A stretch of DNA of 64,000 nt from Leeia aquatica (GTDB lineage Bacteria > Pseudomonadota > Gammaproteobacteria > Burkholderiales > Leeiaceae), in assembly GCF_012641365.1 (NCBI RefSeq), contig NZ_JABAIM010000001.1, positions 682,001-746,000 of the forward strand, read 5' to 3'. Positions 13,996 to 35,950 of this stretch are shown in pieces; position 1 is the first letter of the stretch; every line of letters begins with the position of its first letter. The notes below the pieces were generated by a model. It searched no databases. It had not been told where the DNA came from and saw only the letters and a program-made list of their open reading frames with translations. Made by a program: the position numbers and the translations under genes.

Positions 13996-14101
13996 TTACT
14001 CCGAATGGGTTCAGAAAAGGAACCATGCCCCTGTTTATCAGCGGGGGCATGGCTGGTAGTAAAAAATGGAAACTAATGCTGATCTATATTGCTCACCCCA
14101 T
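13996..14101. repeat. Imperfect direct repeat A flanking the moron island
   Basis: This stretch of about 105 bases (GGGTTCAGAAAAGGAACCATG, hairpin, GGCATGGCTGGTAGTAAAAAA, ending ATTGCTCAC) matches the segment at about 15921-16024 at roughly 70%. That copy reads GAGTTCAAACAAGAAACCATG, hairpin, GGCATGGCTGGTGGTGAAAA and ends ATTACTCAC. The two copies bracket the tRNA-like and acyltransferase island. Confidence 0.65.
14014..14052 (-). terminator. Hairpin leader before Rz
   Basis: On the minus strand CCATGCCCC pairs with GGGGCATGG and is followed by TTCCTTTTCT, then the GGAG ribosome site and start of the Rz-like gene. It has the shape of an intrinsic terminator but stands directly upstream of a gene of the same operon, as at eleven other places in the phage block. 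Confidence 0.6.
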
Positions 14102-14392
14102 GCCGTGGTTCAACGTAGTGGCAACCATGCCTGTTTCGCCGGTCTCGCCCACAGCAGCCGGTAGGCGTATGCCAAGATTGTGGGCATAGCAGGGTTCGGC
14201 AGGAATAAATGGATTGGCGGAACCCAGTTCTACGCATGTAGGGACTCTGTGCGTTGCGATCACCTCGGGCTGTTGGAACGTGAGGCTACCGAGAACCCGG
14301 GAAAGGTTCCGCCTCACCTCTCGCCACAGCTCAGGCTGCGCGATATAATGCTTAAAATCTATGCTGCTACCGCTTGGAGAGCAGCCTTCAGC

Positions 14393-14480
14393 GGAAGCAT
14401 GCCCGAATGACTCAAGGCACTGGTCTTGAAAACCAGCGGTGAACAGCCATCCTTGAGTTCGAATTACACCGCTTCCGCCA
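14393..14480 (+). tRNA. Degenerate tRNA-Ser(UGA), probably a pseudogene
   Basis: An 88-base tRNA-like sequence aligns along its whole length with bacterial tRNA-Ser(UGA). The anticodon arm is perfect (CTGGT-CTTGAAA-ACCAG, anticodon TGA). The acceptor stem pairs in six of seven positions (GGAAGC/GCTTCC), and the discriminator G and CCA are encoded. However, the D loop lacks the conserved GG pair, the T stem is broken (TTGAG against TACAC) and the variable arm pairs poorly. A serine tRNA gene that has decayed, or a phage-carried tRNA, is the best explanation. It lies on the strand opposite to the phage genes, in a 650-base gap between Rz and the acyltransferase. Confidence 0.7.
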
Positions 14481-14645
14481 ATAAATTCAATGAATTAGCT
14501 CGGCTTCATGCTACTCAAAGCAAGCGAAGAAGCACCCTGCTGCTGCCCTGCATGGCAGGACAAATTCACCGCCTTGGGTGATTGTCAAAAGAAGTAATGC
14601 TCCAACTGAATTACCTAGCCATTACCCACATTCACTGGGATAAAT

Positions 14646-15719
14646 ATGATCAAGACCCTCAACTCGCTGGAAGCTTTGCGATTTGTTGCTGCAGCATTGG
14701 TGATTCTAGCCCATTCCGGGGGCTTTCCGATCCCTGTTGTCAGTATGTTCCTAGGCGGCGGAATATTTCTTGGCTCAATAGGGGTCGACATCTTCTTTGT
14801 CATTAGCGGCTTTGTAATGTATTTGAGCGCTTGCAATACCACCAAGGGCAAAGGAGGATCGATTGCATTCATTGTTGCAAGATTACTTAGGATCCTCCCA
14901 CTTTATGCTATTGTCACAGTAGCATGGGGCATCAAAGTCGCAATTTATGACGGCAAGAGTTTAAATATCTTCTATGTGCTACAGTCTTTACTACTACTCC
15001 CAACTACAGAGAGCATTGATCCACTTGTGACTCTGGGCTGGACCCTCCGATACGAGATGTTTTTCTACATGCTGGTCACAATAGGAATTCATTTTAATAG
15101 GCTAATTCTAATTCCAACCCTAGGAATAATCCTATCCTTTATTGCATGGTTAATTTGGGGCTTTTATTATGGCGCCCCCATTGCTATTGAGTTTATTGCA
15201 GGATACGGCCTGGCACACTATTACACCTCACATGAGACATCCAACCCAAGAAGCCAGAGGATTGTAAACTTTGGTCTTGTAATCTCTGCTTGCTTAATGT
15301 TTTTAGCAGCAACAGGAAATGACTGGGGGTATGTGGACACGAATCATTCTTTTATCCCGAGGATGTGGATAGTCTATGAGAATGGTATTACCATCCCTCG
15401 CCCTATTGCATGGGGAATTCCTGCCGTGTTGTTGATTTACTTCTCGGTTCAGAAAGAAAACCGTTGGCATTGGAAATTGGCGGCACTTGGCAAATATACT
15501 TACTCGATTTATTTGCTACAAACATTCTCTAACCCACTTGCAAAAAAACTCACGCATTACATGCCAGACCTGGTAGCGCTTACTTCTGGCTTTCTTATTC
15601 TTTTTGCAGCAAGTTTTCTCTCACATCATCTTTTCGAGCGACGAATCATGCGCTTGAAAAATGGGCTGGTAAGAGTAGTGCTCAGCCTGTTTTATATAAA
15701 GCCAGTTAGCCCACTCTAG
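14646..15719 (+). CDS. Membrane O-acyltransferase (OafA/YrhL family), probable lysogenic-conversion gene
   Basis: The 357-residue protein has about ten hydrophobic segments and family 3 acyltransferase motifs: LNSLEALRFVAAALVILAHSGG near the start with the conserved His, GVDIFFVISGFVM, LARLLRILPLY-type spacing (VARLLRILPLY), LGWTLRYEMFFY and KYTYSIYLLQ. Such enzymes acetylate cell-surface sugars, for example O-antigen. The gene is much lower in GC than its surroundings and lies on the plus strand inside a minus-strand phage operon. Direct repeats bracket it, all signs of a moron acquired by transfer. A role in changing the phage receptor on the host surface is an inference. Confidence 0.85.
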   Translation: MIKTLNSLEALRFVAAALVILAHSGGFPIPVVSMFLGGGIFLGSIGVDIFFVISGFVMYLSACNTTKGKGGSIAFIVARLLRILPLYAIVTVAWGIKVAIYDGKSLNIFYVLQSLLLLPTTESIDPLVTLGWTLRYEMFFYMLVTIGIHFNRLILIPTLGIILSFIAWLIWGFYYGAPIAIEFIAGYGLAHYYTSHETSNPRSQRIVNFGLVISACLMFLAATGNDWGYVDTNHSFIPRMWIVYENGITIPRPIAWGIPAVLLIYFSVQKENRWHWKLAALGKYTYSIYLLQTFSNPLAKKLTHYMPDLVALTSGFLILFAASFLSHHLFERRIMRLKNGLVRVVLSLFYIKPVSPL

Positions 15720-15875
15720 AAATTCATTGATACATTCCCCAGATCATTTCGTTCCCGCTTGTCGGCGCAAATTAACCTACATCACCCGCAAGCGGTGCTG
15801 GCTAACCACAAATTATGTGGTAGGAATCTTGTCGGTGCTGGCTCGACACCGCCAATCCACCCATACCGGCACCTA

Positions 15876-15914
15876 TCACTGATGGGAACCAGAGCGGCAG
15901 GTGAGTTGAGTCAT
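15876..15914 (-). pseudogene. Remnant start of a lost late gene (12 codons)
   Basis: Directly after hairpin leader B, on the minus strand, stands a good ribosome site (GAGGTG) 7 bases before an ATG. It opens a frame of only 12 codons, MTQLTCRSGSHQ, before a stop. The complete leader with no gene behind it suggests that the rest of a phage gene was replaced by the acyltransferase/tRNA island. A genuine leader peptide is the alternative. Confidence 0.35.
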
Positions 15915-15920
15915 AGTGTT

Positions 15921-16024
15921 CACCTCGGATGAGTTCAAACAAGAAACCATGCCCTGTTCGAAGGCAGGGCATGGCTGGTGGTGAAAATAGAAATCAGTGG
16001 CGACAGTACCGAATATTACTCACA
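15921..16024. repeat. Imperfect direct repeat B flanking the moron island
   Basis: This is the partner of the repeat at 13996-14101, in the same orientation. Both copies contain the CCATGCCC...GGGCATGG hairpin and end in a TATTxCTCAC motif. It separates the tail fibre gene from the low-GC island. Confidence 0.6.
15938..15974 (-). terminator. Hairpin leader after the tail fibre gene
   Basis: A perfect 10-base stem CCATGCCCTG/CAGGGCATGG is followed on the minus strand by TTTCTTGTTTG. It lies upstream of the 12-codon gene remnant and repeats the design of the other phage hairpins. Confidence 0.6.
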
Positions 16025-16077
16025 GTGCAAGTGGCTAATCGGAATAGAAGGCCTTGCCCTTTGTCCGTTCTCTTTTA

Positions 16078-17307
16078 TTAAAACTTTATACAAGCCAACA
16101 GCGCGACATTGCGAGGTCGAACACGTTTGTAGGCCATAAATCGCCCTGCTGCTGCACTGATATTTATAGAGTAGCTGGTGTCATAGGAGCTGGTACCGTC
16201 GTGATTTGCAACGCTAGTCAGTGGGATAATGCCGTTCGGATTGTCGACAACCGCTATCTCACTACCTGCCTGCCCTGTCCCCATTGCTCGGCCCACATCG
16301 ACGCCACGTCCATCATCCCACCCTCGCATAAACTCACCTCGCAGGTCGGGCAGGTTGAAGGTGGTGGTACCGTCGCCGAGGCCGAACCAACTTTGCAGGT
16401 AGCTGTGGGTGCCCGACTGTGTGCCGCTGGTCACGATCCGGCCACCGCCGGAGCTTAGGTAGAAGGTGTTGGCATCGATTTTCTCGACGAAGTAGTCTGT
16501 GGTGCTGTTAAGCCCGGAGGGTAGCGCGCCGGTGGTGGAGAGTCGCAGTCGCTCGCCGCCAGTGAAGCCGTGGGCGGGCTTGGTGAAGATGGCCGGATTG
16601 GCGATGTTCACGGTGAACGTCTGCGGTGTGAAGCCCGCACTGGCCACCAGTGCCGCAAAAAGCGCGGCATAGGTACTGCGGGAGACCTCTGCCCCGTTGG
16701 CTTTCAGATAGCCTGCAGGCGGCGTGTTCTGCGCAACATGGATGATGGTGCCGACCGGAACTGCGGATGACAACCCTGCCGCCGGATTCAGCAACAGCCA
16801 TTTGTCCAGCGTCTGGTCATACAACAGTTCCAGCCAGTGGCCGGCACCGGCAATGTCGCCAATCATCAGCGCTTGCCCCGTGCCTTTGACGATGGTTTTG
16901 GCCGGGATGACGCCGCTGTTCGGGGTAAAGGTTGGGGCCGCTGAGGCATTGCTGCCGTTGCTGCGCACGCACAGTGACATGCCGTTGATCAGGGTGGTCA
17001 CCGCGGGGGCAAAGCTGGCGGTGAGCGCGTCACCGGTGCCACCGGCCGTGGCGGTGACTTGACGGCCACTCTGGATGCCAAGGTCGCTCAAACTGCCCAG
17101 TACGGTCCAGCCGTCGTTGTTGCCATTGCGTAGCTTGAGCAGGCCGCTTTGGGTGTCGGCCCACAGCCGGTTGGCACCCACTGCGCCGGGGTCGGTGGCA
17201 CCGCTCAGGTTGCTGGCGATGGTATCCAGCGCATCATTCACTTTCTGCACCAGGCCAAGGCCGGTCAGCGTGCCACTGGTAGGCAGTACGGTCGGATTTT
17301 GTGACAT
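16078..17307 (-). CDS. Phage tail fibre/collar protein
   Basis: The 409-residue tail fibre starts at MSQNPTVLPTSG, with GGAGAAAGC just upstream. A phage tail-collar domain is recognisable in two parts: PVGTIIHVAQNTPPAGYLKANG at about residues 195-220, and GLGDGTTTFNLPDLRGEFMRGWDDG further on. Between them an extra module of about 70 residues (TKPAHGFTGGERLRLSTTGALPSGL..) interrupts the collar domain. The last 60 residues probably form the receptor-binding tip. It lies downstream of the J-like tip protein and reads in the same direction; no separate fibre-assembly chaperone is seen. Confidence 0.85.
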   Translation of the reverse strand: MSQNPTVLPTSGTLTGLGLVQKVNDALDTIASNLSGATDPGAVGANRLWADTQSGLLKLRNGNNDGWTVLGSLSDLGIQSGRQVTATAGGTGDALTASFAPAVTTLINGMSLCVRSNGSNASAAPTFTPNSGVIPAKTIVKGTGQALMIGDIAGAGHWLELLYDQTLDKWLLLNPAAGLSSAVPVGTIIHVAQNTPPAGYLKANGAEVSRSTYAALFAALVASAGFTPQTFTVNIANPAIFTKPAHGFTGGERLRLSTTGALPSGLNSTTDYFVEKIDANTFYLSSGGGRIVTSGTQSGTHSYLQSWFGLGDGTTTFNLPDLRGEFMRGWDDGRGVDVGRAMGTGQAGSEIAVVDNPNGIIPLTSVANHDGTSSYDTSYSINISAAAGRFMAYKRVRPRNVALLACIKF

Positions 17308-17320
17308 TGCTTTCTCCATG

Positions 17321-17344
17321 AAAAAGGCCGCCCGCAGGCGGCCT
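17321..17344 (-). terminator. Hairpin leader between tip protein and tail fibre
   Basis: On the minus strand AGGCCGCC-TGCG-GGCGGCCT is followed by TTTTTC and, 5 bases on, by the GGAGAAAGC site of the tail fibre gene. Confidence 0.65.
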
Positions 17345-17367
17345 GTCTTGTGCAAACGGGATGGTGC

Positions 17368-20300
17368 TCAGTAGCCTTGGCTGATCCAGTTGATCTGGCG
17401 TGCCACATCATTGCTGCCGTTGACCACCCGCACGGTGAAACCGCTGCGGGTTTGCGCGGTCAGCAGCAGGTCGTCCCCCGGCATGGCGTTCAGCAGGGTA
17501 ATCTGCGGCAGGGGCCAGGGCTGGCTGCCGTTGCCGCCGTTAAACGGGCGCTCGTAGAGCACTGAGAAGCCACCGATGGGGACGTTGACCGAGCCGCTGT
17601 CAACGCGGTCCGGCGCATCCACCAGGAAGGTGAGCCCGCTCAGGATGGGGCTGATGCCGGGGTCACGGGTGCTGATCAGCACCCGTGCCTTGAAAGACTG
17701 GGCGACATAGCTGCCCGGTACAAACTGCTGCCAGTCACCAAACACCCCGTCTTCCTGTGCCAGCGCGATCTGCGGCACCACATCCACCTGCTGCCCCAGC
17801 ACCTCACCGAACCAGTCGTTCAGCGCGAAGACGTCGGGCGTGGTCAGCACGTTTTCGTGGATGGCCTGCCCGCGCACGCTGTAACTGATCAGCACATTAC
17901 AAGGCGCAACCCGACCGATATTGATGGTATGGCTGGCGGGCAGGGTATACATGCCATTGCCCGCCACCCCGCCCAGCCACAAGATATCCGGGTTGGACAG
18001 CACATCCGGCAAAGCCAGCAGGCTATCCGCCGCATCCAGCTGGATGGCGCCACCCAGTACCATGGCGCCACCGGCGCACGTCCCCGACCAGCCGCTGGCC
18101 GCTTCGTCGAAGCGGGCCACCACGTTCTTGACCAGCGCGGCACCGGTGATGCTCAGCCGCCCGGGCTGAGCCGAGTAAACCTGCACGCCGCCTTGTGCCT
18201 GGTAGTGTGCCGCAATCCAGTACAGGCCATCCCCCACGGCGGTAAAGCGTGGCAGCGGGGTGCGCCCCAGTACCTTGGCTTGATGCCAGCTGGGGCCGAG
18301 CCGGATTTCATAATCGACCGACCGCAAGTCCTGCACCTCGTCCCAGTAGAGTTGCGTCAGACCCGCCACGAAGTTGGTGCGCAGGTTGCGGATGTCCGGC
18401 ATTGGCGACAGCAAAGCGGTACCTTGCACCGTGTACTGGTAGGCGGGCACCTGACTGATATCCTGCAGCCCGCCCCCATACACGTTGAAGCTGACCAGCT
18501 TGAACCACAGCGTTTTGCCCACCTGATCCAGCGACAGCGCCTCGCTCTCCCCCACCGTGGCATCCAGCCGCACAAAGGGGCTGCCCGCTGCATGGTTGCT
18601 GGCCGTACTGCCCCAGCTGCCGCGCTGCAATCCACCCAGGGTGTATTGATTGACGCCATCCAGCGTTGCCTGCTGATAGCCAAGGTACTCGCCATCCACC
18701 CAGCAGGCGGTGTGCATCAGCCGGGCATCTTCCTCGGTACCGGACAGCAGCTGCCCGCCTTTACCCGTCAACTGTACTGACAACACATTGCCCGCAGCGG
18801 CCAAGGCGGCGCGCAAGGTGCCATAGCGGCTGCCGCCCACGATGCGATCCACCTGCTTGTAGGTGGCACCATCTTGCGAGGCATACACCAGACAGCCCCC
18901 CCACATGGGACCAGGGCCCGTCACCGCCAGCTTGACCCGCAGGGTCTGGTCCTGCCCGGTGAAACCGGGCTCGAAGAACAGCGGCGGCAGCACCTTGCCG
19001 GGATCGGCATTGAAGTCATGACCAAACCCGGAGACCACCTGCGTCGGATAGCGTACCGAGCTGGCCACCCCGCGCGGAAAATCCTCAGCGCGAACGGTCA
19101 GGCCACCATCCTCATCCTCTTCGATCGACGTCACCCGTACCGGGGTTTGCTGCAGGCCAAGGCCACTATCGGTCAGCGTCACCAGATCCATCGGTTCCAG
19201 CAGCGCGTGTCGCCAGCCCAGCCGGAATTCATAATGGTTGCGCACATACAAGGCCCGCTGCAGAAGCAGCTGCGCCACATGGCGGGCTACCGCCGGTTGG
19301 CAGATGGCGTGCAGCTTGACCGGCTCCTGCGGTCGCAACCCGAACTGCTCGATATTGGCCAGATCCTTGGCCTCGGCCACTTCGAGGTTGTAATCGTTAC
19401 TGCGGTTGAGAAACTCCACCTGCACCTGGTTATAGGCATCCGCAGGCGTCTTGCGCTGCACCCGTACCGGGTCATCCGCGCCGCTGACCAGAAAATCGTC
19501 ATCGCTCAGCGCGTACACCGGGGTCAGGTCAGGCAAGAATTGAGCCCCCCAGCCGCTGGCAACCTCATCCCCGTAGGGCAGCACCTTGAGCTGCCCTTCC
19601 GACCACAACAGCGCCGAGTTGGACAACATCGCCAGCTCCTGCAAGTGTTCATGGGCCTGGCGCTGCTCGTGATAGGCGGGCGAAATGAACAAGCCATTGG
19701 CGGTGCAATAATCCCGATAGCGGCTGAAATTGCCCAGCTTGCCGGACGGGAAGCCTGCGCCATGGCGCGGATTGGACAGCAAGTCCGACATCACATCCGC
19801 CGGGTTGGCATCGACCACCCCATTGCCAAACGCATAGCCGCCCACCACTTCAAAGCTGTGGTTTTGCACCTCGGCATTATTGGTCAGCTGATAATTGGCG
19901 CCATACAGCACGGCCGTCTGGCTGTAGCCAATGGCCTGCGCCGGATGACGGCTGAGCAAATGTCCCCATGCAGCCTGCCCTGGCACCCCCGATTGCAAGG
20001 CCAGCCCCAGCTGTTGCAAGGCGCTGAGGTAGTAGGCGGCATCACGCCACTGATAGCTGAGTTTCACCGCCCTGCCGGCCAAGCCCGCGTTGAAGGTATA
20101 CACACCATTGCTGATGCTGAAATCCGCCCCCGGCGACAAGGTCCGCTCAGACCAGTAGCTGCGCCTCTCGCCCTCCACCCGTTCGCTGGTGGTGGCTGAC
20201 AAGTGCGCCACCCAGCTTGCCGCCTGCGGCACGCTCACCTGATAAGGCGCGGTCGCGGGGACCGTCACCGACAGATTGTTCTCCGTGTGCAAGGCACCGG

Positions 20301-20652: not shown

Positions 20653-20655
20653 CAG

Positions 20656-21081: not shown

Positions 21082-21093
21082 GGCTTCCTCCAT

Positions 21094-21118
21094 AAAAAAA
21101 CCGGGCCGCAGCCCGGTT
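21094..21118 (-). terminator. Hairpin leader before the NlpC/P60 gene
   Basis: On the minus strand AACCGGGC-TGCG-GCCCGGTT runs into TTTTTTT and then the GGAGG site of the peptidase gene. It is a textbook terminator shape in the middle of the tail operon. Confidence 0.7.
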
Positions 21119-21140
21119 CATGATTGGCGCAATGCCCCGC

Positions 21141-22582: not shown

Positions 22583-25168
22583 TTACGCCCCCGCAAAATT
22601 ACGGCCCTGCGCCCGCAGCGACGCCACCATGGCCGAACCATGCTCCATGAACAACTGGCGAACCCCGCGCGCATCCAGCGCCTGGATATTGATGTGATAC
22701 TGCCCACCGGAGGCCGCTGCACCAGCGCCTTCGCCTTGACCCGCCATGTCGCGAATCACATTGGCGTAAGGCTTGGGCAGCACCATTTCCTCTTCATGCA
22801 GCTGCGTCAACGGATTGGTGCCACGCGGAATGTCGTAGCCACCCGAAGCCGATTTGACCTTGCCTACCATACCCTTCACCGCTGCAAACGCCGCCGCCCC
22901 TGCGCCCACTGCCAGAATTGGCCCGACAAACGGGATGCCGACAATCGCCTTGAAGGCCCCCGACATGGCTTCAACAGCGTTGTTCATGATGTTGCCAATC
23001 ACGCCACTCGCGTTAGTTGCCATGCTGTTTGCCGCACCCATTTTTTCAATACTGCCTTTAGCGGCAGTCCCGGCAGCAGTAGACCCAACATCTGCTTCCT
23101 TGAACCCCAGCAGCGCCATGAGTTTGGTTTTCAGATGAGAAAGAAACTCTCGTAGTGTTGGCTTGATGTATTCATTCACAAAAGCTTTTCGCATATCGCC
23201 CCAGACATTCCTCATGGCCTCCTTGAAGGTCTGGGTCTTATCCAGCATGGCCGCCAGATTTTTCTGCAGCGACTGCTCGGTTTGATCCATCACCCGAACC
23301 ATGCTGGGACGCTCAGCTTCGAGCTGCTCCTCATACTCCTTCTGCTTTTTTCTGGATTCCAGCGCCAGCTCTTCCAGCTGTTTATCCAGGCGCATCTGAG
23401 CCTCAATCGTCAGCGCCCCTTTTTCTTCCAGCATGGCCCGCTCATCATCCAGTGCCTTTTGCTTGATGCCGCGGCGACGCTCCTCCAGCTCTATTTCAAT
23501 CTCGAGGAACTGTTCGTTGGAAATTCTTTTCTTTTCCAGACTTTTCTTGGCAGTTGCCTCATCTTCGTCAACTGCTTTTATCGCCAAATCCCTCTTCTGG
23601 GTAATCGCATCAGTAGCGAGCTTGATTGACGCATCTTGAGCGGCCTGCTCCTGTCGCGCCCGGATATTGTCCAGCGCCAGCTGAATTGCACCGTACTCAG
23701 CACTGCCCGCTCGCGCCAGCTTTTGCCGCTGTTGCCAGAACTGCAGCTCCATTTCCAGGCGCTTCTTGAAATCCTTTTCCCCACTTGCCTGCAGCTGTTC
23801 TGACAATTCCTCCTGCCAGTAATCCAGACGTGTTTCGTGCTTGGAGCGCTGCTTACCCACAGCCCCCGCTGCTGGCTGTTCCTGCGCAGGCGGTGTAGCT
23901 GGTGGTGTGGCAGGCGCGGGGACGGAGGGGGTGGGCGTCTCCACCTTGCTGGGCTCAGCGGGTTTGGCATCCTCCTTCTTGCCTTCGTCCTTCTTTTCTT
24001 CTTCCGGTTTCTCCTTGAAACTGGCGGGAGTGAAGGCTTTCCTGATCTTGCCAACCAGCTCAAAGATCGTAGCGAGAACCTGTTTGATCAAAGGCATGAT
24101 CAACGTCGTAAAGAAGGACAGCTGGATGTCGCGACGGATATTATTCATCGCCTGCTTGAAAGACAGCCCCTTGGCGACCATTTCATCCATGCCGTCATGG
24201 AAAGCCTTCTCGAACTCCTTGGCAAAGTTCGTCATGCTGGGAGGATCCACGATGATTTTGCCGGCCTTCCGGGCCTTTTCATCCGCCTCTTTTTTGGCTT
24301 TATCTTCAGCCTCGATCTTCTGCTTTAAAGCCTTCCGTGCCTCGTAGCGCTGCTGAAGCTTGGCCTCTTTCTCGGCAAGCCCAGCATCCTGGACCTCCCG
24401 CGCATGGGCAACCTCACCTTCCAGCTTGTCGATCTCATCTTCAAGCTCAAACAGCTTCCCCTTGCTTTCTGTTTCAGGAAAATAGCGTTGCGCAAATTGC
24501 GAAAGCAATGTAGCGGCATCTTTCATTACGGACACACCGATGGTGTCCCTGGCAGCGGGCCTTATCGCCTTAAGAAAGTTGTGCCAAGCTTCTGCACCGG
24601 TTTGCTTGCCATCCTTTACACCTTTATTTTGCTCCTTGGCTACCTTTTCCAGCTTGGCCCCGAACTGGTGTAAGCTGCTCTTTTCTTCTTTCTTCTTGTC
24701 ATCCGGCTTGCTGCCTTCGCCCGCATTCGGTTCAGCACCCGGCTTCTCCCCCCCTGGCTTTCCGCCCTGACCGGCCTCCTCCTTCACCTGCTCAATACTT
24801 TTGCCGACCTTTTCCAGCAGTGTCTGGGCTTCCTCTGCAAACTGACGGATGGGCTCGATATTGATCTGGATGCCTTCAGCAAACACTTCCTGCAGTTGCA
24901 CCACGGCCTGCTGGGTGGAGCCCATTTTGTCCGCCAGCACCGTAGCCGCTTCGCTGGCACTGGTCAGGTTGTCCGCCAGCGCCTTCAGAGTATCCGCCAG
25001 TGGCAGCCCATCTAGCGCAAACACAGCTTCCAGTGTGCTGCGCAGCTTGCCCAGCTCGGTGTTCATGGTCGAAACGGCTTGACGAACGGTCGCTACAATC
25101 CGGTCGAGTGCGGCTTGCACATCTGCCGTATCAGCGGCAAATGTGAATGTAATGTTGGTGTCACTCAT
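22583..25168 (-). CDS. Tail tape measure protein
   Basis: At 861 residues this is long and almost wholly helical: heptad-rich and full of Lys/Glu/Ala, with low-complexity linkers such as EEEKKDEGKKEDAKPAEPSK and PTPSVPAPATPPATPPA in the middle. A hydrophobic segment near residues 740-790 (GIPFVGPILAVGAGAAAFAAVKG) is typical of tape measures that insert into the host membrane. At about 1.5 angstrom per residue the tail would be near 130 nm (inference). The ribosome site GAAGGAGGTGAGGG is strong. It sits between endolysin and DUF2460, the tape measure position. Confidence 0.9.
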   Translation of the reverse strand: MSDTNITFTFAADTADVQAALDRIVATVRQAVSTMNTELGKLRSTLEAVFALDGLPLADTLKALADNLTSASEAATVLADKMGSTQQAVVQLQEVFAEGIQINIEPIRQFAEEAQTLLEKVGKSIEQVKEEAGQGGKPGGEKPGAEPNAGEGSKPDDKKKEEKSSLHQFGAKLEKVAKEQNKGVKDGKQTGAEAWHNFLKAIRPAARDTIGVSVMKDAATLLSQFAQRYFPETESKGKLFELEDEIDKLEGEVAHAREVQDAGLAEKEAKLQQRYEARKALKQKIEAEDKAKKEADEKARKAGKIIVDPPSMTNFAKEFEKAFHDGMDEMVAKGLSFKQAMNNIRRDIQLSFFTTLIMPLIKQVLATIFELVGKIRKAFTPASFKEKPEEEKKDEGKKEDAKPAEPSKVETPTPSVPAPATPPATPPAQEQPAAGAVGKQRSKHETRLDYWQEELSEQLQASGEKDFKKRLEMELQFWQQRQKLARAGSAEYGAIQLALDNIRARQEQAAQDASIKLATDAITQKRDLAIKAVDEDEATAKKSLEKKRISNEQFLEIEIELEERRRGIKQKALDDERAMLEEKGALTIEAQMRLDKQLEELALESRKKQKEYEEQLEAERPSMVRVMDQTEQSLQKNLAAMLDKTQTFKEAMRNVWGDMRKAFVNEYIKPTLREFLSHLKTKLMALLGFKEADVGSTAAGTAAKGSIEKMGAANSMATNASGVIGNIMNNAVEAMSGAFKAIVGIPFVGPILAVGAGAAAFAAVKGMVGKVKSASGGYDIPRGTNPLTQLHEEEMVLPKPYANVIRDMAGQGEGAGAAASGGQYHINIQALDARGVRQLFMEHGSAMVASLRAQGRNFAGA

Positions 25169-25943: not shown

Positions 25944-25970
25944 AAAAAAAAAGGCCGCACAAGGCGGCCT
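25944..25970 (-). terminator. Hairpin leader before the holin gene
   Basis: On the minus strand AGGCCGCC-TTGTG-CGGCCT is followed by a run of nine T. It separates the lipoprotein gene from holin-endolysin and could act as terminator for the former. Confidence 0.75.
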
Positions 25971-26472: not shown

Positions 26473-26502
26473 GAATCGAGTTTAAAAAAGGAAACTCGAT
26501 TC
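26473..26502 (-). terminator. Hairpin leader before the lipoprotein gene
   Basis: A perfect 11-base inverted repeat, GAATCGAGTTT/AAACTCGATTC, has a T-rich loop on the minus strand. It overlaps the stop codon of the long chaperone product and ends directly before the AGGAAAAC site of the lipoprotein gene. Confidence 0.6.
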
Positions 26503-27075: not shown

Positions 27076-27116
27076 AAACAAAAAAGAAAACGGGCTGCGC
27101 ACCTGCGCAACCCGTT
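27076..27116 (-). terminator. Hairpin leader before the chaperone gene
   Basis: On the minus strand AACGGG.TGCGCA pairs with TGCGCA.CCCGTT, then TTTTCTTTTTTGTTTTG runs towards the GAGGAATC ribosome site. Confidence 0.65.
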
Positions 27117-27143: not shown

Positions 27144-27917
27144 TTACTCGGACAAGCTCCAGGTCACCACCCGGCCCAGCGGGTCGGCAAAGGCTTCGAA
27201 GTCGAATTCCGGAACCAGGAAGTCATCCTGCTTGGTGCCGAAAGACAGCTTGCCTGCCACCGCCGAGTGCAGCCGCAGCTTCATGCTCTTGCCCTGGTAG
27301 GGAATGAACAGGTCCGCCGCGAAAGACGGTGCCGAGCCCATCGGCAGGTTCATCACCGTGGACTGGGTGGCCGTCGGTGCTGACGCCGCCGCCACGCTGT
27401 ACTCGTAGTTGATGAACACGGTCTTGCCGACGTCCCCCGCAGCAAAGGTGTACAGGCCGACGTTGCTGACCATGTACTGCCCGGTAGCCGGTGCGCTGGC
27501 GACACGGGTCATCGGGCGGCCATTGGCGTCGATCACGCCGAAGTCGCTGGTAAAGGTGCCGCTGGAAGGCGGCGCGACGGTGATCTGGAACGGCGTGGCC
27601 GGGATCACGCTGCCGGTGGTGTCGTACTTGGCGGTGATCAGGCCGCCACTCATCGACTGGCCGAAGATCACGTTGTTGAACATGGCGCCGAACAGCTGGG
27701 CAAACTTGCATTTGCCGCTGATCTTGCCCTTGCCGCGCCCCACCGCCACCGGGAACTGGTTTTGACCGTGCAGCGTCTTGCTCTCGAACGAGATGTCGAC
27801 ACTGCCCTCCTGCATCACGCCGATCATGATCGGGGTCGGCGCGGCGATGCTGTTGCCGAAGGCGTCGTTCTGCGGCGTTGCCCAAAGCATGCCGGAACCG
27901 AAACCATACTGTGCCAT
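27144..27917 (-). CDS. Major tail tube protein
   Basis: This 257-residue tail tube subunit starts MAQYGFGSGMLWATP, right after GGAGGTAACACA; a longer frame to 27947 lacks a ribosome site and would run through the hairpin. The sequence is beta-rich, with IMIGVMQEGSVDISFESKTLHGQNQFPV at the front, as in long-tailed phage tubes. A Gly/Ser/Thr-rich insertion in the middle (residues about 100-195) may be an outer decoration. Its position between tail terminator and chaperone is the usual one. Confidence 0.82.
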   Translation of the reverse strand: MAQYGFGSGMLWATPQNDAFGNSIAAPTPIMIGVMQEGSVDISFESKTLHGQNQFPVAVGRGKGKISGKCKFAQLFGAMFNNVIFGQSMSGGLITAKYDTTGSVIPATPFQITVAPPSSGTFTSDFGVIDANGRPMTRVASAPATGQYMVSNVGLYTFAAGDVGKTVFINYEYSVAAASAPTATQSTVMNLPMGSAPSFAADLFIPYQGKSMKLRLHSAVAGKLSFGTKQDDFLVPEFDFEAFADPLGRVVTWSLSE

Positions 27918-27928: not shown

Positions 27929-27954
27929 CAAAAAGAAAACCCGCCAAAGCGGGT
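27929..27954 (-). terminator. Hairpin leader before the tail tube gene
   Basis: On the minus strand ACCCGC-TTTG-GCGGGT is followed by TTTCTTTTT and directly by GGAGGTAAC of the tail tube gene. Confidence 0.7.
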
Positions 27955-29442: not shown

Positions 29443-29447
29443 GGCCT

Positions 29448-29639
29448 TTACTCCGCTGCTGCGGCTTTGGCAGCCTTGCCGCGCTTGGCAACCGGCTCAG
29501 CCAGCCGCACAAAGCCCAGCGGCTCCAGTGCCGGTGCCACGCCATCCGGCGCCTCGATCAGCCCCTCGGCATCCGCATTGAACTGTTCGCCACCGACGTT
29601 GACCGAAGTCACGTCCGGCGGACATGCAAATTTCGCCAT
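29448..29639 (-). CDS. Small phage protein, unknown
   Basis: The 63-residue protein starts MAKFACPPDVTSVNVGG and ends in an Ala/Lys-rich tail. GCAGGAGG precedes the start. It lies between capsid and connector genes, where many phages encode a short head protein. No family recognised with confidence. Confidence 0.65.
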   Translation of the reverse strand: MAKFACPPDVTSVNVGGEQFNADAEGLIEAPDGVAPALEPLGFVRLAEPVAKRGKAAKAAAAE

Positions 29640-29651
29640 GATTCCTCCTGC

Positions 29652-29685
29652 AAAAGAAAAGCCCCGCTGCAGCGTGCAGCGGGGC
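29652..29685 (-). terminator. Hairpin leader between capsid and small head gene
   Basis: On the minus strand a perfect 10-base stem GCCCCGCTGC/GCAGCGGGGC is followed by TTTTCTTTTG and the GGAGG site of the next gene. It is the strongest hairpin of the set. Confidence 0.75.
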
Positions 29686-29699
29686 CGTGCGCATGCGAC

Positions 29700-31223
29700 T
29701 TAGCCGCGTGCGATGTTGGTGATGATGCCGAAGGCCGGCGGGAAGAAGTTTTGCAGCACCTGGTCGGTGTACACGCCGTACTCGTACTTGCGGGTACGCA
29801 GCGGCCACTCCAGCTGGTAGTAGTCGCGACGGGTGCGAATCTGCACCGCGTTCTGGATGCCGGACAGCTTGTACGGCAGGTTGTCCGACCAGAACAGGAT
29901 GGTGCCCGGCGGTACGTTCGGATGCACCTCGATCTTCACCTGGGTGTTGGTGATCTTGTTCAGGTAGCTGCCGATCACTGCGCTCGGGTTGTACGCGCCC
30001 GGATTGTTGCCATCCAGGTTGAAGCGCACCAGCGGCGCACCGCCGCCGATCAGGATCTTGCGGTTCATGTCCAGCAGCTGCTGGGCATTCACGTAGATCA
30101 CCTCCGGCGACAGGCGATACTGGCTCCAGAAGGCAAAGAAGGCGTCTTCCAGCTCGACGATGCCACCGGCGTTGTCCGCCGTCAGCGTGGAGCCCACGCC
30201 CGGGGTACCGGTCGGCAGGGTCTTGACGTAAGCACCGCTGCCCGATTTGGCGATCTGCGTCAAAATACCGTCGAACTCCAGCGAATTGACGGAATTATCG
30301 CTGGCAGGCAGCGAAGCAGCCGTCTGGGTGCCGCTGGCGTTGGCGGTGATGCTGACGCTGTTGATGGTGGTCACCGCGCCCAGCACTTCGGCACCGGCTG
30401 CGCCCCAGTACCAGGCATAGGCCACGGCGTTGGCCATCGGCACCACCGAGGCGGTGGCCGAGCCATTGGGACCGGTGATCGACACGGTGGCGGCGGTCGA
30501 CTTGCGGGCGGCGCCGCCGCCGTAGCTGTCGCTGGTGCCATCGGCATTGCTGCGGTTCACCACCGTCGGCACCTGTGCGGTGGCCAGATTGATGGTGCTG
30601 CCTTGCTGGCCATTGTTCCAGCCGCCCAGCGCCCAGAAGGCATCAAAGCCGAGGCCGACGGCCACCACTGACAGCGTACCCGTGGCCAGCGAGCCGCCAG
30701 TGGTGGAGCCAATCAGCGTGGGCTGCGGGGTGGTGCCCAGCGGCATGCTGGTATTGCCGCCGAGAATCACGCCTTCTTCACCGATCATCAGCGAACGCAG
30801 CAGGCCTTCCACCGCACGCGCCTTCACGTCGTCAAAGCCTTCGGCGGCATATTCCGCTTCAAAGCTCACATAGTCTTCCAGACCCAGCCCACGGTAGGCC
30901 GCCACATACTCGCTGGTACTGGTGGCAATCACCCCGCCACGGCGGCCTTCGGCCACACCGGCAGCCAGGTTGTTGACGTTGATGCCGGTGATGGCACGCC
31001 AGCTGGCCTGGGTGCCGCCTTTGCCGGAGACACGGGGAATCTTGTTACGCAGCGGGGTCAGCACCGGGTACAGCGTCAGCGCCGGGGCTTGCAGGTCGTA
31101 AGCGGTGAGGCCCTGGGTCGGGCTGGCGGCCTGGTTGAACGCCTTGGCGATTTCATCCGGCAGCGCCGCCTTTTGTGCCAGCTTCAGCAAAGCCAGCGTT
31201 TCTTGGGTGGCATGAGCGCCCAT
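29700..31223 (-). CDS. Major capsid protein (HK97 fold) with inserted Ig-like domain
   Basis: This 507-residue protein starts MGAHATQETLALLKLAQ after GAAGGAGATTGC. The N-terminal arm and E-loop region (about 1-155: VLTPLRNKIPRVSGKGG, ASWRAITGIN) and the C-terminal half (about 315-507: YRLSPEVIYVNAQQLLDMNRKIL, GTILFWSDNLPY, RTRRDYYQLEWPLRTRKYEYGVY) fit an HK97-type capsid. Between them about 155 residues rich in Gly/Ser/Thr/Ala (TLSVVAVGLGFDAFWAL.., SITGPNGSATASVVP) look like an immunoglobulin/fibronectin-type insertion that would project from the capsid. It lies directly after the protease-scaffold gene. Confidence 0.87.
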   Translation of the reverse strand: MGAHATQETLALLKLAQKAALPDEIAKAFNQAASPTQGLTAYDLQAPALTLYPVLTPLRNKIPRVSGKGGTQASWRAITGINVNNLAAGVAEGRRGGVIATSTSEYVAAYRGLGLEDYVSFEAEYAAEGFDDVKARAVEGLLRSLMIGEEGVILGGNTSMPLGTTPQPTLIGSTTGGSLATGTLSVVAVGLGFDAFWALGGWNNGQQGSTINLATAQVPTVVNRSNADGTSDSYGGGAARKSTAATVSITGPNGSATASVVPMANAVAYAWYWGAAGAEVLGAVTTINSVSITANASGTQTAASLPASDNSVNSLEFDGILTQIAKSGSGAYVKTLPTGTPGVGSTLTADNAGGIVELEDAFFAFWSQYRLSPEVIYVNAQQLLDMNRKILIGGGAPLVRFNLDGNNPGAYNPSAVIGSYLNKITNTQVKIEVHPNVPPGTILFWSDNLPYKLSGIQNAVQIRTRRDYYQLEWPLRTRKYEYGVYTDQVLQNFFPPAFGIITNIARG

Positions 31224-31242
31224 ATAGCAATCTCCTTCGAGA

Positions 31243-31268
31243 GAAAAACGCGCCGTCGCTCTCGCGCG
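31243..31268 (-). terminator. Weak hairpin leader before the capsid gene
   Basis: On the minus strand CGCGC and GCGCG pair around a 10-base loop and are followed by TTTTTCTC, then GAAGGAG of the capsid gene. It is the least stable of the series. Confidence 0.45.
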
Positions 31269-31299
31269 GCACATACACACATCCGCTTGCGCGGCACGT

Positions 31300-32562
31300 T
31301 CACAGCAGTCGCATCGGCGTGGCAAACGCCCGCTTGATCAGGGTGGCGGTCTCCTCCACGCTGCCATCCTCCTTGCGCACCGCATCCGTCACCGGCACGC
31401 GGCGCACATCCTCGCCCTTCTCCACGCTGCGCAACGCCAGGCGCGGCTGCTCCGGCAGCGCTTCGAGCTGGCGCACCCGCTTTTGCAGGCGCGAGCGCTC
31501 TTGCGACAGGCGGCCCAGCTCGCCTTTCAGCAGTTCAAAATCGGCTGCCAGCCGGTTCAGCTTGCGCAGCGCGTCGCCGCCCAGCCGGGTTGATTTACGG
31601 GCTGCCGGTTTGTCACCGGTTCTGGCAGAAGCCTTGCCAGCGGGTTTGCCTCGACGGCGGGCCGGGGCGGCGTCTTCATCGTCCTCCTCGGCCTCGTGGT
31701 CCTCAGCCTCCTCGTCATCCTCGGCGTCTTCCTCTTCGTCCGCGTCTTCGTCCTCATCCTCGGCGAAGGCGGTCTTGCCCGGTTTGGCGGGAGGTTGTTG
31801 CTTGCCTGCTTTGGCCGGAGGCTGCTTGCCGGAAGGTGCAGGGTCGGCGGCGTCTTCGTCTTCCGCGTCGGGATCGACTTCGTCCTCGCCTTCGGGCGCA
31901 GCCCCCAGCAAGCCTTGCACCCGCAACGCTTCAAACTGGGTGAGCTCCACCAGCGCGTCGTACATCGCCCCGGTCAGCTGGCCGACCTGCCCGATCAGCA
32001 CCGTTGGCGCTTCGCTGTTGCAGGACAGCAGCTCCAGATAGCCCTTGAAGCCATGCAGCGCTTCCGCCAGCTCGGCGGCGCGGGCCACGGCAAACGCACC
32101 CTTTTTCAGTGGGCGAGCCTGGCGGGCCTTGAAGCAGGTAATCACCGCGTCCGGGTTGGCCGGGCGATCCACCAGTGAGACTTCCACCAGCTTGAGGCCG
32201 GTGATGACTTGCGGGTTGGCCGGGTCACGGGTGGTCACCTGGCCACCAATGGAAAACCCTTTGTAGACCCCCGCGCGCACCTTGCGCACGGCTTCGCTGT
32301 CCACAATGTGGGCGCAGAAGCGGGTCTGGCCGTCGGGCAGCACTTCCGCCTCCAGCGCGGTGCCCGCTGCCAGTGGCTGGTGCATTTCGCGCACCGCGCC
32401 AAAGCGCAGGTAGTCTGGCAGCGCATCGCGCATGGCCTCGGCGGTGATGGTTTCGCCATCCGCATCTTCTGCGGCACTGGACGCGATCCCCCACACCCGG
32501 ATGGTGCCGTCGTCCAGGTCCTCGACCTTGGCAATCGCACCAAAGCGTTTCTTAAGCGACAT
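31300..32562 (-). CDS. Prohead protease fused to scaffold domain (XkdF-like)
   Basis: This is a 420-residue protein. The first 170 residues form a prohead serine protease: IRVWGIASSAAEDADGE, candidate His in REMHQPLAAG, KGFSIGGQV, and candidate Ser in LVEVSLVDRPAN. A helical stretch follows, then a very acidic low-complexity linker (EDEDEDADEEEDAEDDEEAE and on, about 270-300) and a basic patch (RRRGKPAGK). The C-terminal coiled coil (about 325-370, FELLKGELGRLSQERSRLQKRV) should act as internal scaffold. Fusing protease and scaffold in one chain is known in several siphophages. The start follows GGAGAGCTGACG. Confidence 0.85.
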   Translation of the reverse strand: MSLKKRFGAIAKVEDLDDGTIRVWGIASSAAEDADGETITAEAMRDALPDYLRFGAVREMHQPLAAGTALEAEVLPDGQTRFCAHIVDSEAVRKVRAGVYKGFSIGGQVTTRDPANPQVITGLKLVEVSLVDRPANPDAVITCFKARQARPLKKGAFAVARAAELAEALHGFKGYLELLSCNSEAPTVLIGQVGQLTGAMYDALVELTQFEALRVQGLLGAAPEGEDEVDPDAEDEDAADPAPSGKQPPAKAGKQQPPAKPGKTAFAEDEDEDADEEEDAEDDEEAEDHEAEEDDEDAAPARRRGKPAGKASARTGDKPAARKSTRLGGDALRKLNRLAADFELLKGELGRLSQERSRLQKRVRQLEALPEQPRLALRSVEKGEDVRRVPVTDAVRKEDGSVEETATLIKRAFATPMRLL

Positions 32563-32574
32563 CGTCAGCTCTCC

Positions 32575-32601
32575 AAAAGAAAAAGCCCGCCAGTGGCGGG
32601 C
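32575..32601 (-). terminator. Hairpin leader before the protease-scaffold gene
   Basis: On the minus strand GCCCGCC-ACT-GGCGGGC is followed by TTTTTCTTTT and then GGAG of the protease gene, the clearest example of the hairpin-TTTTCTTTT-GGAG design. Confidence 0.75.
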
Positions 32602-32607
32602 AGGTTG

Positions 32608-33954
32608 TCAGGGGGTGTCCAGCGCGGCGTCATCCTCACCCACCGCGGCGGGCGGAGGTTCAGGCGGCGTCAGCTCCGGCATCAGGTCGGCGCGTTGTGC
32701 GGCGGTGAGTGCGGGCAGGCCGAAGCGCTTGGCGCGGACTTCATCCGGATGCAGCACGCGGGCTTCCACATACTGGCGGTCGATCTCGGCCTGCTGCAGT
32801 GGGTCGACCGATTCGTCGCTCTCCCACACAAATTCCAGATCGGTATAGCCAAACTGGCTGACGATCACCCGGTCGATCAGTGATTTCACCCAGTGCTGCA
32901 AGGGGGCCAGCCCTTCGGCCAGCGCGGCCTGCTGGCCGGTCTGCGCGGTGGCACGGTTCATGTCACGCACAAAGGCCTGCGGACTGACCGAGAAGGCAAA
33001 GCAGATGATGCGGGCCAGCCACTCGTCCATCTCGTCTTTCAGCGCTTCCGCCTTGGTGTTGTACGGCTCCACCCCCTTGGGGACAAACTTGGCACCGCGA
33101 CGGGCGCTGCTGTTGCCGGACAGCACCGAGTTCCACCAGTCCTCGAACTGGCGGATCTGCTCCGGCTGCCAGCTCTCCGGTACCTGAAAGATCAGGTCGG
33201 GCGTGGCGCCTTCGCTGTAATAGGCGAGCTGGTGGGCCTGCCGGCGCAGCGCGATGTTGACGCTGACAATCACCTGCTCCACCGGGCTATAGCCATAGAC
33301 CTTGTGGGTGCGCGGATTACGCGGCAGGTAGAGCAGCTCATCGCGGCTGTAGTTCACCGCCGGCAGGCCCTTCAATACCTGCTGGTAAGCGGGATCGGGT
33401 GGCAAGGGGGTGCGACCGGAGAGGTCCAGCACCCGCTTGATGGTCGAGCCATCCACCGGCTCCAGCGCGTACAGGCCGCCGCCACGGGTGCGGCGGGGGT
33501 ACAGCGCCGGTGCGTCGATCACCAGCAGGTCTTCCAGTAACATCCGCAGCCAGGTGGACCAGTCGTGCTCACGGTCCGGGCTGTGGAAAAACGCCAGCAA
33601 GGCCTCGCAGCGGGCATCCGGCTTGGCCAGCCGGGCCTTGGGCCGGATGGTCCAGTGCAGCTTGGCCAGCTGGTCCTTGCGGGTTTCAATCACCAGCCGC
33701 ATCAGGTCGTAGCCATCGGCCAGCGCCCGCATCTGTGCAAAGCTCACCGGCTCTTCCGCCCGCGGCGTCTGCCGCAGGTTGTAACCGGTCGGGTAGTCCA
33801 TCTGCCGCCCGGCTACTTCCGGCGGGGCCTGCGGTGGAAAGGGCTGCATCGGCCCGAACCAGGCCGGGGTTTCGCCGGTTACGGCATAGCGCACCCCGGC
33901 CACCATCCGGGCCAGCAGGCCGGGCTCGATCGGGGTCAGTTTGGCGTCGCTCAT
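32608..33954 (-). CDS. Portal protein (HK97-like)
   Basis: This 448-residue protein of the phage portal family starts MSDAKLTPIEPG; an upstream TTG in frame is less likely. Visible marks are QMRALADGYDLMRLVIETRKDQLAKLHW, LEPVDGSTIKRVLD, YSRDELLYLPRNPRTHKVYGYSPVEQ, EWLARIICFAFSVSPQAF and a proline-rich acidic C-terminus. It forms the ring at the capsid vertex through which DNA is packaged. It starts 21 bases after the overlapping end of the terminase gene. Confidence 0.92.
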   Translation of the reverse strand: MSDAKLTPIEPGLLARMVAGVRYAVTGETPAWFGPMQPFPPQAPPEVAGRQMDYPTGYNLRQTPRAEEPVSFAQMRALADGYDLMRLVIETRKDQLAKLHWTIRPKARLAKPDARCEALLAFFHSPDREHDWSTWLRMLLEDLLVIDAPALYPRRTRGGGLYALEPVDGSTIKRVLDLSGRTPLPPDPAYQQVLKGLPAVNYSRDELLYLPRNPRTHKVYGYSPVEQVIVSVNIALRRQAHQLAYYSEGATPDLIFQVPESWQPEQIRQFEDWWNSVLSGNSSARRGAKFVPKGVEPYNTKAEALKDEMDEWLARIICFAFSVSPQAFVRDMNRATAQTGQQAALAEGLAPLQHWVKSLIDRVIVSQFGYTDLEFVWESDESVDPLQQAEIDRQYVEARVLHPDEVRAKRFGLPALTAAQRADLMPELTPPEPPPAAVGEDDAALDTP

Positions 33955-33974
33955 CGGAATCGGTCCTCTGCAAG

Positions 33975-35426
33975 TCAAGCGTTGATCGCCCCGCCACGTG
34001 GCAGGGCCGGATTCGGGTCAGTCGGTTCGCGGCGGGCGCGGTGGGCGTAGTGGTCGAGCAGGCCAAACGGGCTCTGGCTCAACTGCGCAAAGGCCAGCGA
34101 CAGCGCGTCCACCTGATCGTCGTGCCGGGCGTTGGGGAACAGCCGCAGCTCGGCCAGCAGCGCGTCGTTCCACGGTGCGCGCTGCAGCAGCACGTTGCCG
34201 ACGTTGAGCTGCGCCGCCAGTGGCTCGGCACGGGTCAGCTTGTCGCCCGTCACCGGCGAGGCACTGAGGCTGAAACCGGCCAGCTGGCGACTCAGGTAGG
34301 CCACCTGCGCCTTGCCCGCCTGACCGGGATCCTGCGGGATGGCGATACGGCAAGCCGGGCCATCCCGCTGGGCGGCATGGCGAATGGCCGCTTCCACCTG
34401 GTCCGGCCCGCCTTGCAGGCGGATCAGGTCGCCCACCAGCCAGCGACCATCTGGCAATGCCCCCAGCTTGGCTCCCACCGTCCAGTCGCCACCTTGTGCG
34501 GTGGCGGCCAGATCCCAGGCGCGCACCCAGCGCACCCCGGCGGGTACGGCGTCCAGCAGCGCCACCTGATCCGGCTTGAACAGCAGCCCGGCAGGCGGCG
34601 CAGGCTGTTGCTGGTATTGTCCGGCAAAGGTATACGGTGCCGCCTGCGCCATGCGCTGCAAGGTGGCGACATCGTGCCGCTCTGGCCAGAGCGCGTGACC
34701 GTCGTCTTGCAAGGCGGGCAGGCACAGGTGCTCCCAAGCTTCGCCATTGCCACCGTCCAGCAGCCAGCCGGAGAGGTCGTGCTCATGCAGGCGCTGCATG
34801 ATGAGGATGACCGGGGTATCCGGACGGTTCTTGCGGCTCTCCAGCGTATTCTGGAACCAGTCGATCACGCCTTGCCGGGTGGTGTCGGAGCGGGCTTCAT
34901 CCGGCTTGTGCGGGTCGTCGATCAGGATGGCCCCGCCAAAGCCGGGCCGCTGCTTGCCGGCACCAAAGCCGGTAATGGTGCCACCTGCCCCGGTGGCGTA
35001 CATCACGCCGCCCGCGGTGGTGCTCCAGTGTGAACGTGCGCTGCGTGCCAGCCGGGTGTGCGGCGCAATCGCCCGGTAGGCCTCGTGCTGCATCAGGCTG
35101 CGGATCGCTGCGCTGTTATGGCTGGCCAGCGCAGCGGCGTAGCTGACGTGGATGAACTCGGCGTCCGGCACTTGCGCCAGCGCCCAGGCGACAAAATTGA
35201 CCACCGCCAGCTCGGTTTTCGAGTAACGCGGCGGGATGTTGATGATCAGGCGGCGACATTCGCCGCGAAACACCCGCATCAGCGCGTCACAGATCAAGCG
35301 GTGATGCGGTGCGCGCTGCCACAGGTAGCCGCGCCGCTGCAGGAACAGCCAGCGCGAGAAGAAATAGAGGTCCTGCCGCGCCCACTGTGCGGCCACAGCG
35401 TAGTGCTGGGGAGAGAAAGGCTGCAT
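33975..35426 (-). CDS. Terminase large subunit
   Basis: This 483-residue DNA-packaging motor carries an ATPase and a nuclease. The Walker A variant PPRYSKTE is at 65-72 and Walker B AILIDD at 166-171. The RNase H-like nuclease supplies Asp305 (RAWDLAAT), Asp366 (IPQDPGQAG) and Asp436/440 (HDDQVDA). All catalytic residues are present, so the enzyme looks functional. Its end overlaps the portal upstream region. It lies 75 bases after the small subunit; this is the one sizeable gap of the operon without a terminator-like hairpin. Confidence 0.95.
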   Translation of the reverse strand: MQPFSPQHYAVAAQWARQDLYFFSRWLFLQRRGYLWQRAPHHRLICDALMRVFRGECRRLIINIPPRYSKTELAVVNFVAWALAQVPDAEFIHVSYAAALASHNSAAIRSLMQHEAYRAIAPHTRLARSARSHWSTTAGGVMYATGAGGTITGFGAGKQRPGFGGAILIDDPHKPDEARSDTTRQGVIDWFQNTLESRKNRPDTPVILIMQRLHEHDLSGWLLDGGNGEAWEHLCLPALQDDGHALWPERHDVATLQRMAQAAPYTFAGQYQQQPAPPAGLLFKPDQVALLDAVPAGVRWVRAWDLAATAQGGDWTVGAKLGALPDGRWLVGDLIRLQGGPDQVEAAIRHAAQRDGPACRIAIPQDPGQAGKAQVAYLSRQLAGFSLSASPVTGDKLTRAEPLAAQLNVGNVLLQRAPWNDALLAELRLFPNARHDDQVDALSLAFAQLSQSPFGLLDHYAHRARREPTDPNPALPRGGAINA

Positions 35427-35501
35427 GGACCAGACCTGTACCGTCGCCTGTCAGGCGGGAATGAAAGGTGCGCCCTCCCCGCGCGGTGTCGGGTACGGCG
35501 G

Positions 35502-35909
35502 CTAGACCTGCTCGGCGAGTTCGCGCCGCAGGGTGTCCAGCTGCTGTTCATCCAGCAGTGGCCAGCTGGGGGTGGCTGGCTCGCCGTCACTCGGCAAGGG
35601 CTGCGCCAGTTGCGCTGCGCGCCACTTGCGTACTTCCACCCGCAGCTTGGCGGCTGCCACACCGGCGTTATCCAGCCCTTGGGCGGCGTCGGCAATCTCC
35701 ACCATGTCTTCTGCCAGTGCGTCGAGCTGCACACTACGGGCCAGCTGGTACTGCTGGCGAAACTCGGCTTCGCTTTGCAGCCAGCCCAGCACCACGGCCA
35801 GCGCGGGCAAGCCACGCTTGCGGCACACCCGTGCCAGCGGCAAACCCTCGGCCAGCCCGGCACACACCCGCGCCGCCAGGGCCGGGTCATAGGGATGCGC
35901 GACGGTCAT
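35502..35909 (-). CDS. Terminase small subunit
   Basis: This 135-residue protein of the Sf6-type small terminase group has an N-terminal helix-turn-helix (ARVCAGLAEGLPLARVCRKRGLPALAVVLGWL), then the oligomerisation helices with SEAEFRQQYQLARSVQLDALAEDMVEIADAA and KLRVEVRKW. It recognises the packaging site on DNA. It is the first gene of the late operon as seen in this window; behind it stand the RDD genes, not phage early genes. CTGGAGTCC precedes the start region. Confidence 0.88.
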   Translation of the reverse strand: MTVAHPYDPALAARVCAGLAEGLPLARVCRKRGLPALAVVLGWLQSEAEFRQQYQLARSVQLDALAEDMVEIADAAQGLDNAGVAAAKLRVEVRKWRAAQLAQPLPSDGEPATPSWPLLDEQQLDTLRRELAEQV

Positions 35910-35925
35910 GCATGGACTCCAGAAA

Positions 35926-35950
35926 ACAAAAAAGCCCGCACAAGGCGGGC
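35926..35950 (-). terminator. Terminator between the RDD gene and the phage operon
   Basis: On the minus strand GCCCGC-CTTGT-GCGGGC is followed by TTTTTTGTTTTC. It lies 75 bases past the RDD stop and 17 bases before the terminase small subunit start. An almost identical hairpin occurs at 36619-36641. Confidence 0.8.

Follow-up and report, generated by a model that had tools for sequence, protein, structure and literature searches.

Putative terminators between late structural genes are annotated in the GenBank records of several phages. HK97 (NC_002167) has them on the forward strand after the portal gene, after the capsid gene, and before and after the tail-tube gene, with further ones before the tape-measure gene, before I and before J; N15 (NC_001901) has four, before and after the capsid gene, after the tail-tube gene and before J; and it is with these annotations that the two phages were compared here. 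P22 (NC_002371) is annotated with one such element after the capsid gene, whose location the record compares with that of stem-loops in HK97 and lambda; phi80 (NC_021190) has two in its tail genes. Under a strict score (d'Aubenton-Carafa d>0, which weighs stem stability per base together with the U-tract), five of the annotated late terminators of HK97 pass, and strict terminators are present in lambda (before and after E, before J, and before the side tail fibre gene), D3 (after the capsid gene, before the tube gene and before the tape-measure gene) and KS9 (before the capsid and tube genes), with tandem terminators after the capsid gene of Bordetella phage IFTN2. The earlier note on this DNA knew of no described phage system with such regular spacing, an opinion that these records correct. 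No quantitative survey or functional test of terminators inside late operons was found in the searchable literature. The start-associated sequences of mycobacteriophages are a conserved repeat sequence before gene starts, and they were rejected as a parallel because the hairpin sequences described below differ from one another and contain no conserved repeat.

A gene transfer agent (GTA) offers another parallel. In the Caulobacter GTA cluster, experiments showed that an internal terminator holds back the structural genes and is bypassed via GafZ antitermination; the terminator tested there, which follows the first gene, is made up of three 150-bp repeats (PMC11150451). The element described here is likewise a structural gene cluster, comprising late genes only, with putative internal terminators.

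The window (the whole stretch of 64,000 nucleotides of Leeia aquatica DNA that was analysed) contains a dense new example of this known, poorly explained late-operon arrangement. As in late operons of the HK97 and N15 type, GC-rich hairpins followed by a U-tract separate late structural genes and lie on the transcribed strand, and the borders agree, around the capsid, tube, tape-measure and J genes. Nearly the same borders carry terminators in HK97, but HK97 is an intact phage, whereas the element in the window lacks early genes and is more densely supplied (10 strict terminators in 23 kb). N15, P22 and phi80 have fewer hairpins per operon and capsid families that are unrelated or distant, and lambda, D3, KS9 and IFTN2 have 4-8 strict terminators per 20 kb that are not annotated as a system.

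The late operon of the element runs on the minus strand from 35909 to 13450 with its open frames intact. Its head part is ordered terS, terL, portal, protease, capsid, a 63-aa ORF, adaptor, neck and tail terminator; these are followed by the presumed tube gene, two small tail ORFs, a 157-aa ORF, holin, endolysin (VanY/M15) and tape measure, and finally by tail-assembly genes, a J-like tail tip, a tail fibre and an Rz-like gene. The principal genes are:

35502..35909, minus strand, terS, small terminase (phrog_1482, E 1.4e-27)
33975..35426, minus strand, terL, large terminase (phrog_38, E 9e-106)
32608..33954, minus strand, portal (phrog_2662, E 8e-90)
31300..32562, minus strand, prohead protease, Peptidase_S78 (PF04586 barely over the cut-off; PHROG head maturation protease)
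29700..31223, minus strand, major capsid protein, MCP (phrog_13692; tblastn to annotated major capsid proteins)
27144..27917, minus strand, presumed tail-tube protein (phrog_8234, of unknown function; function inferred from position and gene order)
22583..25168, minus strand, tape-measure protein (phrog_27190 / phrog_2854)

Host genes flank the element to the left of 13.4 kb and to the right of 36.0 kb, among them a two-component pair, an exonuclease/phosphatase-family protein and two RDD-family genes, the last being the upstream neighbours of terS. The same stretch is present in IMG/VR as a virus of 22,460 bp (L005). No integrase, repressor, replication or antiterminator genes were recognised beside the element at 13450-35950, and it consists of late genes only, perhaps a defective remnant or a GTA-like cluster. 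The lack of early genes and of a recognisable antiterminator makes it probable that the element is silent or defective, or else that its control lies elsewhere. No direct repeat flanking the element was found; the capsid gene is missing from two genomes of the same genus, and a search of these two for an empty site returned no RDD homologue and only partial matches to the two-component genes. ARAGORN identified no tRNA in the window, and no RNA family of Rfam was matched.

The hairpins of the operon are as follows, in order of transcription:

35934..35950, minus strand, terminator hairpin and U-tract before terS (d=41.6)
32585..32601, minus strand, terminator hairpin in the portal / prohead protease gap (d=47.8, dG -13.7; gap z -2.54)
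31249..31273, minus strand, terminator hairpin in the protease / MCP gap (d=20.8)
29661..29685, minus strand, terminator hairpin directly 3' of the MCP gene (d=49.9, dG -22.9)
27940..27953, minus strand, terminator hairpin in the tail terminator / tail tube gap (d=19.5)
27091..27114, minus strand, terminator hairpin 3' of the tail-tube gene (d=52.7, dG -19.3)
26473..26502, minus strand, AT-rich palindrome before the 157-aa ORF (no d>0; gap z -2.51)
25953..25969, minus strand, terminator hairpin in the 157-aa ORF / holin gap (d=46.0)
21101..21116, minus strand, terminator hairpin upstream of a 141-aa tail gene (d=40.1)
17326..17343, minus strand, terminator hairpin in the J-like tail tip / tail fibre gap (d=31.3)
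15947..15974, minus strand, terminator hairpin 3' of the tail fibre gene (d=14.2; 5' copy of a duplicated leader)
14022..14053, minus strand, hairpin upstream of the Rz-like gene (loose scan only; gap z -2.36)

All twelve inverted repeats that the earlier note had reported are thus present near the positions it gave, and ten have the terminator shape that it described under the strict score, the exceptions being those at 26473 and 14014; its observation that the terS-terL gap lacks a hairpin is borne out as well (gap z=+0.16). The pattern is real: between 13.0 and 36.3 kb the strict score returns 10 hairpins on the transcribed (minus) strand and 0 on the opposite strand, and 30 dinucleotide shuffles of the transcribed strand gave a mean of 0.63 and a maximum of 2. 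As a host background, 103 co-directional gaps of 25-150 bp in 300 kb of the genome were scored, and 7 of them have a terminator. Whole-gap folding energy, a weaker test because the gaps are GC-rich, was one of the checks that the note had proposed: all 12 hairpin gaps fold below their shuffles (z from -1.05 to -3.28; about -6.9 when pooled as a Stouffer sum), but taken singly only 6 of the 12 reach p<0.05. A simple pattern scan, with 20 terminator-like sites against 17.6 expected, was too lax and was set aside for the d-score. No strict hairpin stands right before the tape-measure or J gene of the window; hairpins lie at least one gene upstream of each. An arrangement of one promoter per gene was rejected, the 3 promoter-like sites in 12.5-32.4 kb all being on the plus strand and below the number in shuffles, with none on the transcribed strand.

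Several of the sites have features of their own. The hairpin at 14022..14053 has a weak tail and falls below the strict score. That at 26473-26502 is a perfect 11-bp AT-rich palindrome with the loop CCTTTTTT; it was rejected as a terminator, being AT-rich, with its T-run inside the loop, and overlapping the end of the preceding gene, and may be an operator or an uncommon leader instead. The 157-aa ORF behind it starts MNMLKTAAVLSSAFILAGC and is lipoprotein-like. The hairpins at 14014 and 15938 are not independent, because they are diverged copies of one leader (52 of 68 positions identical, the former copy at 14.02-14.07 kb), which bracket a plus-strand gene (14646-15719) whose product we take, from its sequence by eye, to be an acyltransferase; this gene looks like an inserted moron, and two leader copies would be expected if its insertion brought about a duplication. 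The 3' end of a host RDD-family gene carries a unit (35930-36025, minus strand) that includes the hairpin before terS; an 82%-identical second copy of this unit lies 0.7 kb away on the same strand (36620-36720), behind the neighbouring RDD gene. The first copy abuts terS. The unit contains an FNR-box-like site, a sigma-70-like promoter (TTGACA-17-TATCAT), a leader of approximately 45 nt and the terminator, and the two copies could be small RNA genes or attenuators.

A search with the capsid protein identified 14 genome contigs and 80 viral contigs, the element being one of the latter; identity in the relatives is 38-58%. Once these had been dereplicated at 90% and the window's own copy taken out, 61 remained, with genes called by our own ORF script, so that start sites and some gap lengths are approximate. 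A strict terminator is found before the MCP gene in 22 of 60 relatives, 3' of the MCP gene in 17 of 58, before the tail-tube gene in 9 of 46, before the tape-measure gene in 5 of 30 and 3' of the tail-tube gene in 2 of 45; none was found where genes of the dereplicated relatives are tightly coupled, at the borders of the adaptor, neck, tail-terminator and tail-assembly genes. Among gaps of 25-400 nt, 53 of 146 at the hot borders (chiefly those on either side of the MCP gene and those upstream of the tail-tube and tape-measure genes) have a strict terminator versus 23 of 266 elsewhere (odds ratio 6.0, p=1.5e-11, an optimistic value given that the hot borders were picked after seeing the counts and that the relatives are not fully independent). 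The strand bias recurs (124 strict terminators on the coding strand versus 53 on the opposite strand), and 25 relatives together contain 69 strict terminators compared with 5 in shuffles. Any one hot border is without a strict terminator in about two thirds of the relatives, so that such a terminator is not essential. Where a strict terminator 3' of the capsid gene is lacking, the gap has a mean z of -2.49 (33 gaps, z<-2 in 22), and five relatives (L018, L006, L067, L011 and L045) have tandem terminators upstream of the capsid gene.

The sequences of these hairpins turn over. Fully 91 of 92 gap hairpins of the relatives are distinct, yet they occupy the same gene borders, in keeping with the note's remark that shape and not sequence is kept, and among close relatives the pairing of the stems is preserved by compensating changes. 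The HK97- and lambda-capsid relatives, too alike for covariation, were used for hairpin retention only, and among them the hairpins are kept. In the Neisseria prophages (L028, L030, L037, L031 and L089), inverted DNA uptake sequences make up the hairpins that follow the capsid and tube genes; different variants of them (GCCGTCTGAA, GTCGTCTGAA) occur in different prophages, again with compensating stem changes.

Several intact relatives have, upstream of the late operon, the layout of a Q-pR'-tR' region: a gene in the Q position, a promoter-like box, one or two terminators, and terS. The gene encodes a protein of 148-209 aa (family A1, 34-69% identity to the L036 member) and is found upstream of terS in eight loci, of which L018 and L094 are the same prophage. 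The coordinates are:

L036, 3077-3706, A1 gene
L032, 1905-2510, A1 gene
L018, 3034-3654, A1 gene (same prophage as L094)
L045, 2077-2649, A1 gene
L054, 1471-2073, A1 gene
L019, 1958-2491, A1 gene
L043, 39-485, A1 gene

One or two terminators follow approximately 55-90 nt behind each A1 gene, mostly succeeded by terS/terL, and alignment of the leaders reveals a shared promoter-like CCCAATATAG and a conserved stretch that leads into the first terminator. Members of A1 have no antiterminator match in Pfam or PHROGs; one match in a viral library bears the name antitermination protein Q (E 0.053). The best PDB match of the AlphaFold model (pTM 0.74) is chain G of 7xya (prob 1.00, E 0.007 only, TM 0.68 by target), which from the chain length and the entry title (AlpA-loading complex) we infer to be AlpA. 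Family A1 is a candidate new family of antiterminators with a predicted AlpA-like fold. AlpA of Pseudomonas aeruginosa is a processive antiterminator that passes an intrinsic terminator and uses a C-terminal HTH motif (PMC9371919). A1 may resemble AlpA in its predicted fold, and is like it in an HTH-like region towards the C-terminus and in the succession of promoter and terminator, but there is no sequence match, and the element in the window has no A1 gene. In L085 a zinc-finger protein is found instead, and its match to a Q-like PHROG is weak (E 0.0047).

The suggestion that transcription through the operon would need processive antitermination gains indirect support from A1, in the Q position of several relatives; no such gene was found in the element or its own genome. 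Unlike a Q-dependent late operon, the element has no antiterminator gene just upstream of a late promoter and tR'; where the note proposed to look for one, upstream of the terminase gene, host RDD genes are found, and profile and sequence searches of the genome yielded no A1, PF06530 or convincing phrog_127 match. The single phrog_127 match (E 0.005) lies within a 373-aa frame that is, by length and zinc-finger type, presumably DnaJ.

The explanation that seems to us moderately probable is that the hairpins act as intrinsic terminators which silence stray transcription but which, in intact phages, polymerase passes by means of antitermination of the Q/AlpA type. Such terminators would stand between late genes that are translated separately, in a structural operon of the lambda/HK97 type; in intact relatives, lytic transcription would start from a pR'-like promoter just upstream of terS, a Q/AlpA-type antiterminator would load onto RNA polymerase, and the modified polymerase would pass both tR' and the hairpins inside the operon. 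Polymerase without this modification, for instance when it starts from a stray or host promoter in the lysogen, would halt at the next hairpin, which would keep the capsid and lysis genes silent. In the read-through mRNA the hairpins, as 3' ends, may also stabilise the segments around the abundant capsid and tube genes, and such further functions, in message stability or in setting protein ratios, may exist alongside antitermination. The copy in the window probably can no longer use antitermination, or relies on an unrecognised factor.

If silencing were their only role, a single tR' would suffice for the lysogen, and the preference for capsid and tube borders would have no explanation. We give a minor but appreciable chance to the hairpins being selected in their own right, independently of lysogenic silencing: they would mark off the capsid, tube and tape-measure genes as expression units of their own, with a sequence free to turn over (even to hairpins of host uptake sequences) while place and shape are kept, and virion protein ratios would be set by termination or mRNA stability. 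Stability might also be their whole function, as RNase III sites act as mRNA processing and stability elements in T7; a U-rich linker would be cleaved and the upstream capsid or tube segment protected, consistent with a capsid gene bounded by hairpins on both sides and with the unusual stability of the post-capsid hairpin even in relatives without a strict terminator, but a U-tract directly behind the stem and tandem copies are hallmarks of terminators, and we think processing unlikely. Leaky termination, with a fixed share of polymerases passing each hairpin to give nested transcripts like those from the intercistronic terminators of phiX174, would suit the range of strengths among strict sites of the window (d=14 to 53) and the preference for borders adjoining capsid, tube and tape-measure genes, whose products have very different copy numbers. 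Hairpins directly before the capsid and tube genes would, however, lower the products most needed, and with nine strong ones in a row little transcript of the distal genes would remain unless antitermination operated; we consider leaky termination distinctly unlikely.

Two further readings are passive mosaicism and a translation leader. Terminators that arrived with morons or host DNA would be harmless under antitermination and could simply persist; the leader duplicated around the acyltransferase gene, the host RDD-gene terminator directly before terS and the uptake-sequence hairpins of the Neisseria relatives fit this reading, but passive accumulation gives no reason to expect the same core-gene borders in distant relatives as well as in lambda, N15, HK97, D3 and KS9, and it is quite improbable. 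The hairpin and U-run might instead form a translation leader that insulates the ribosome site and provides a U-rich standby site for protein S1, as the distance of 18-34 nt from stem end to start codon at 9 of the 10 strict window sites would allow. This spacing spreads widely in the relatives (quartiles 22, 28.5 and 50, up to 579 nt), although there the adjacency of stem and U-tract is part of the definition of a hit, and a leader needs no tandem copies; we regard it as very improbable.

The question is whether these hairpins silence prophages, tune the virion proteins, or persist because antitermination hides them. Their border-specific enrichment, together with a candidate AlpA/Q-like family in intact relatives, makes this question testable.
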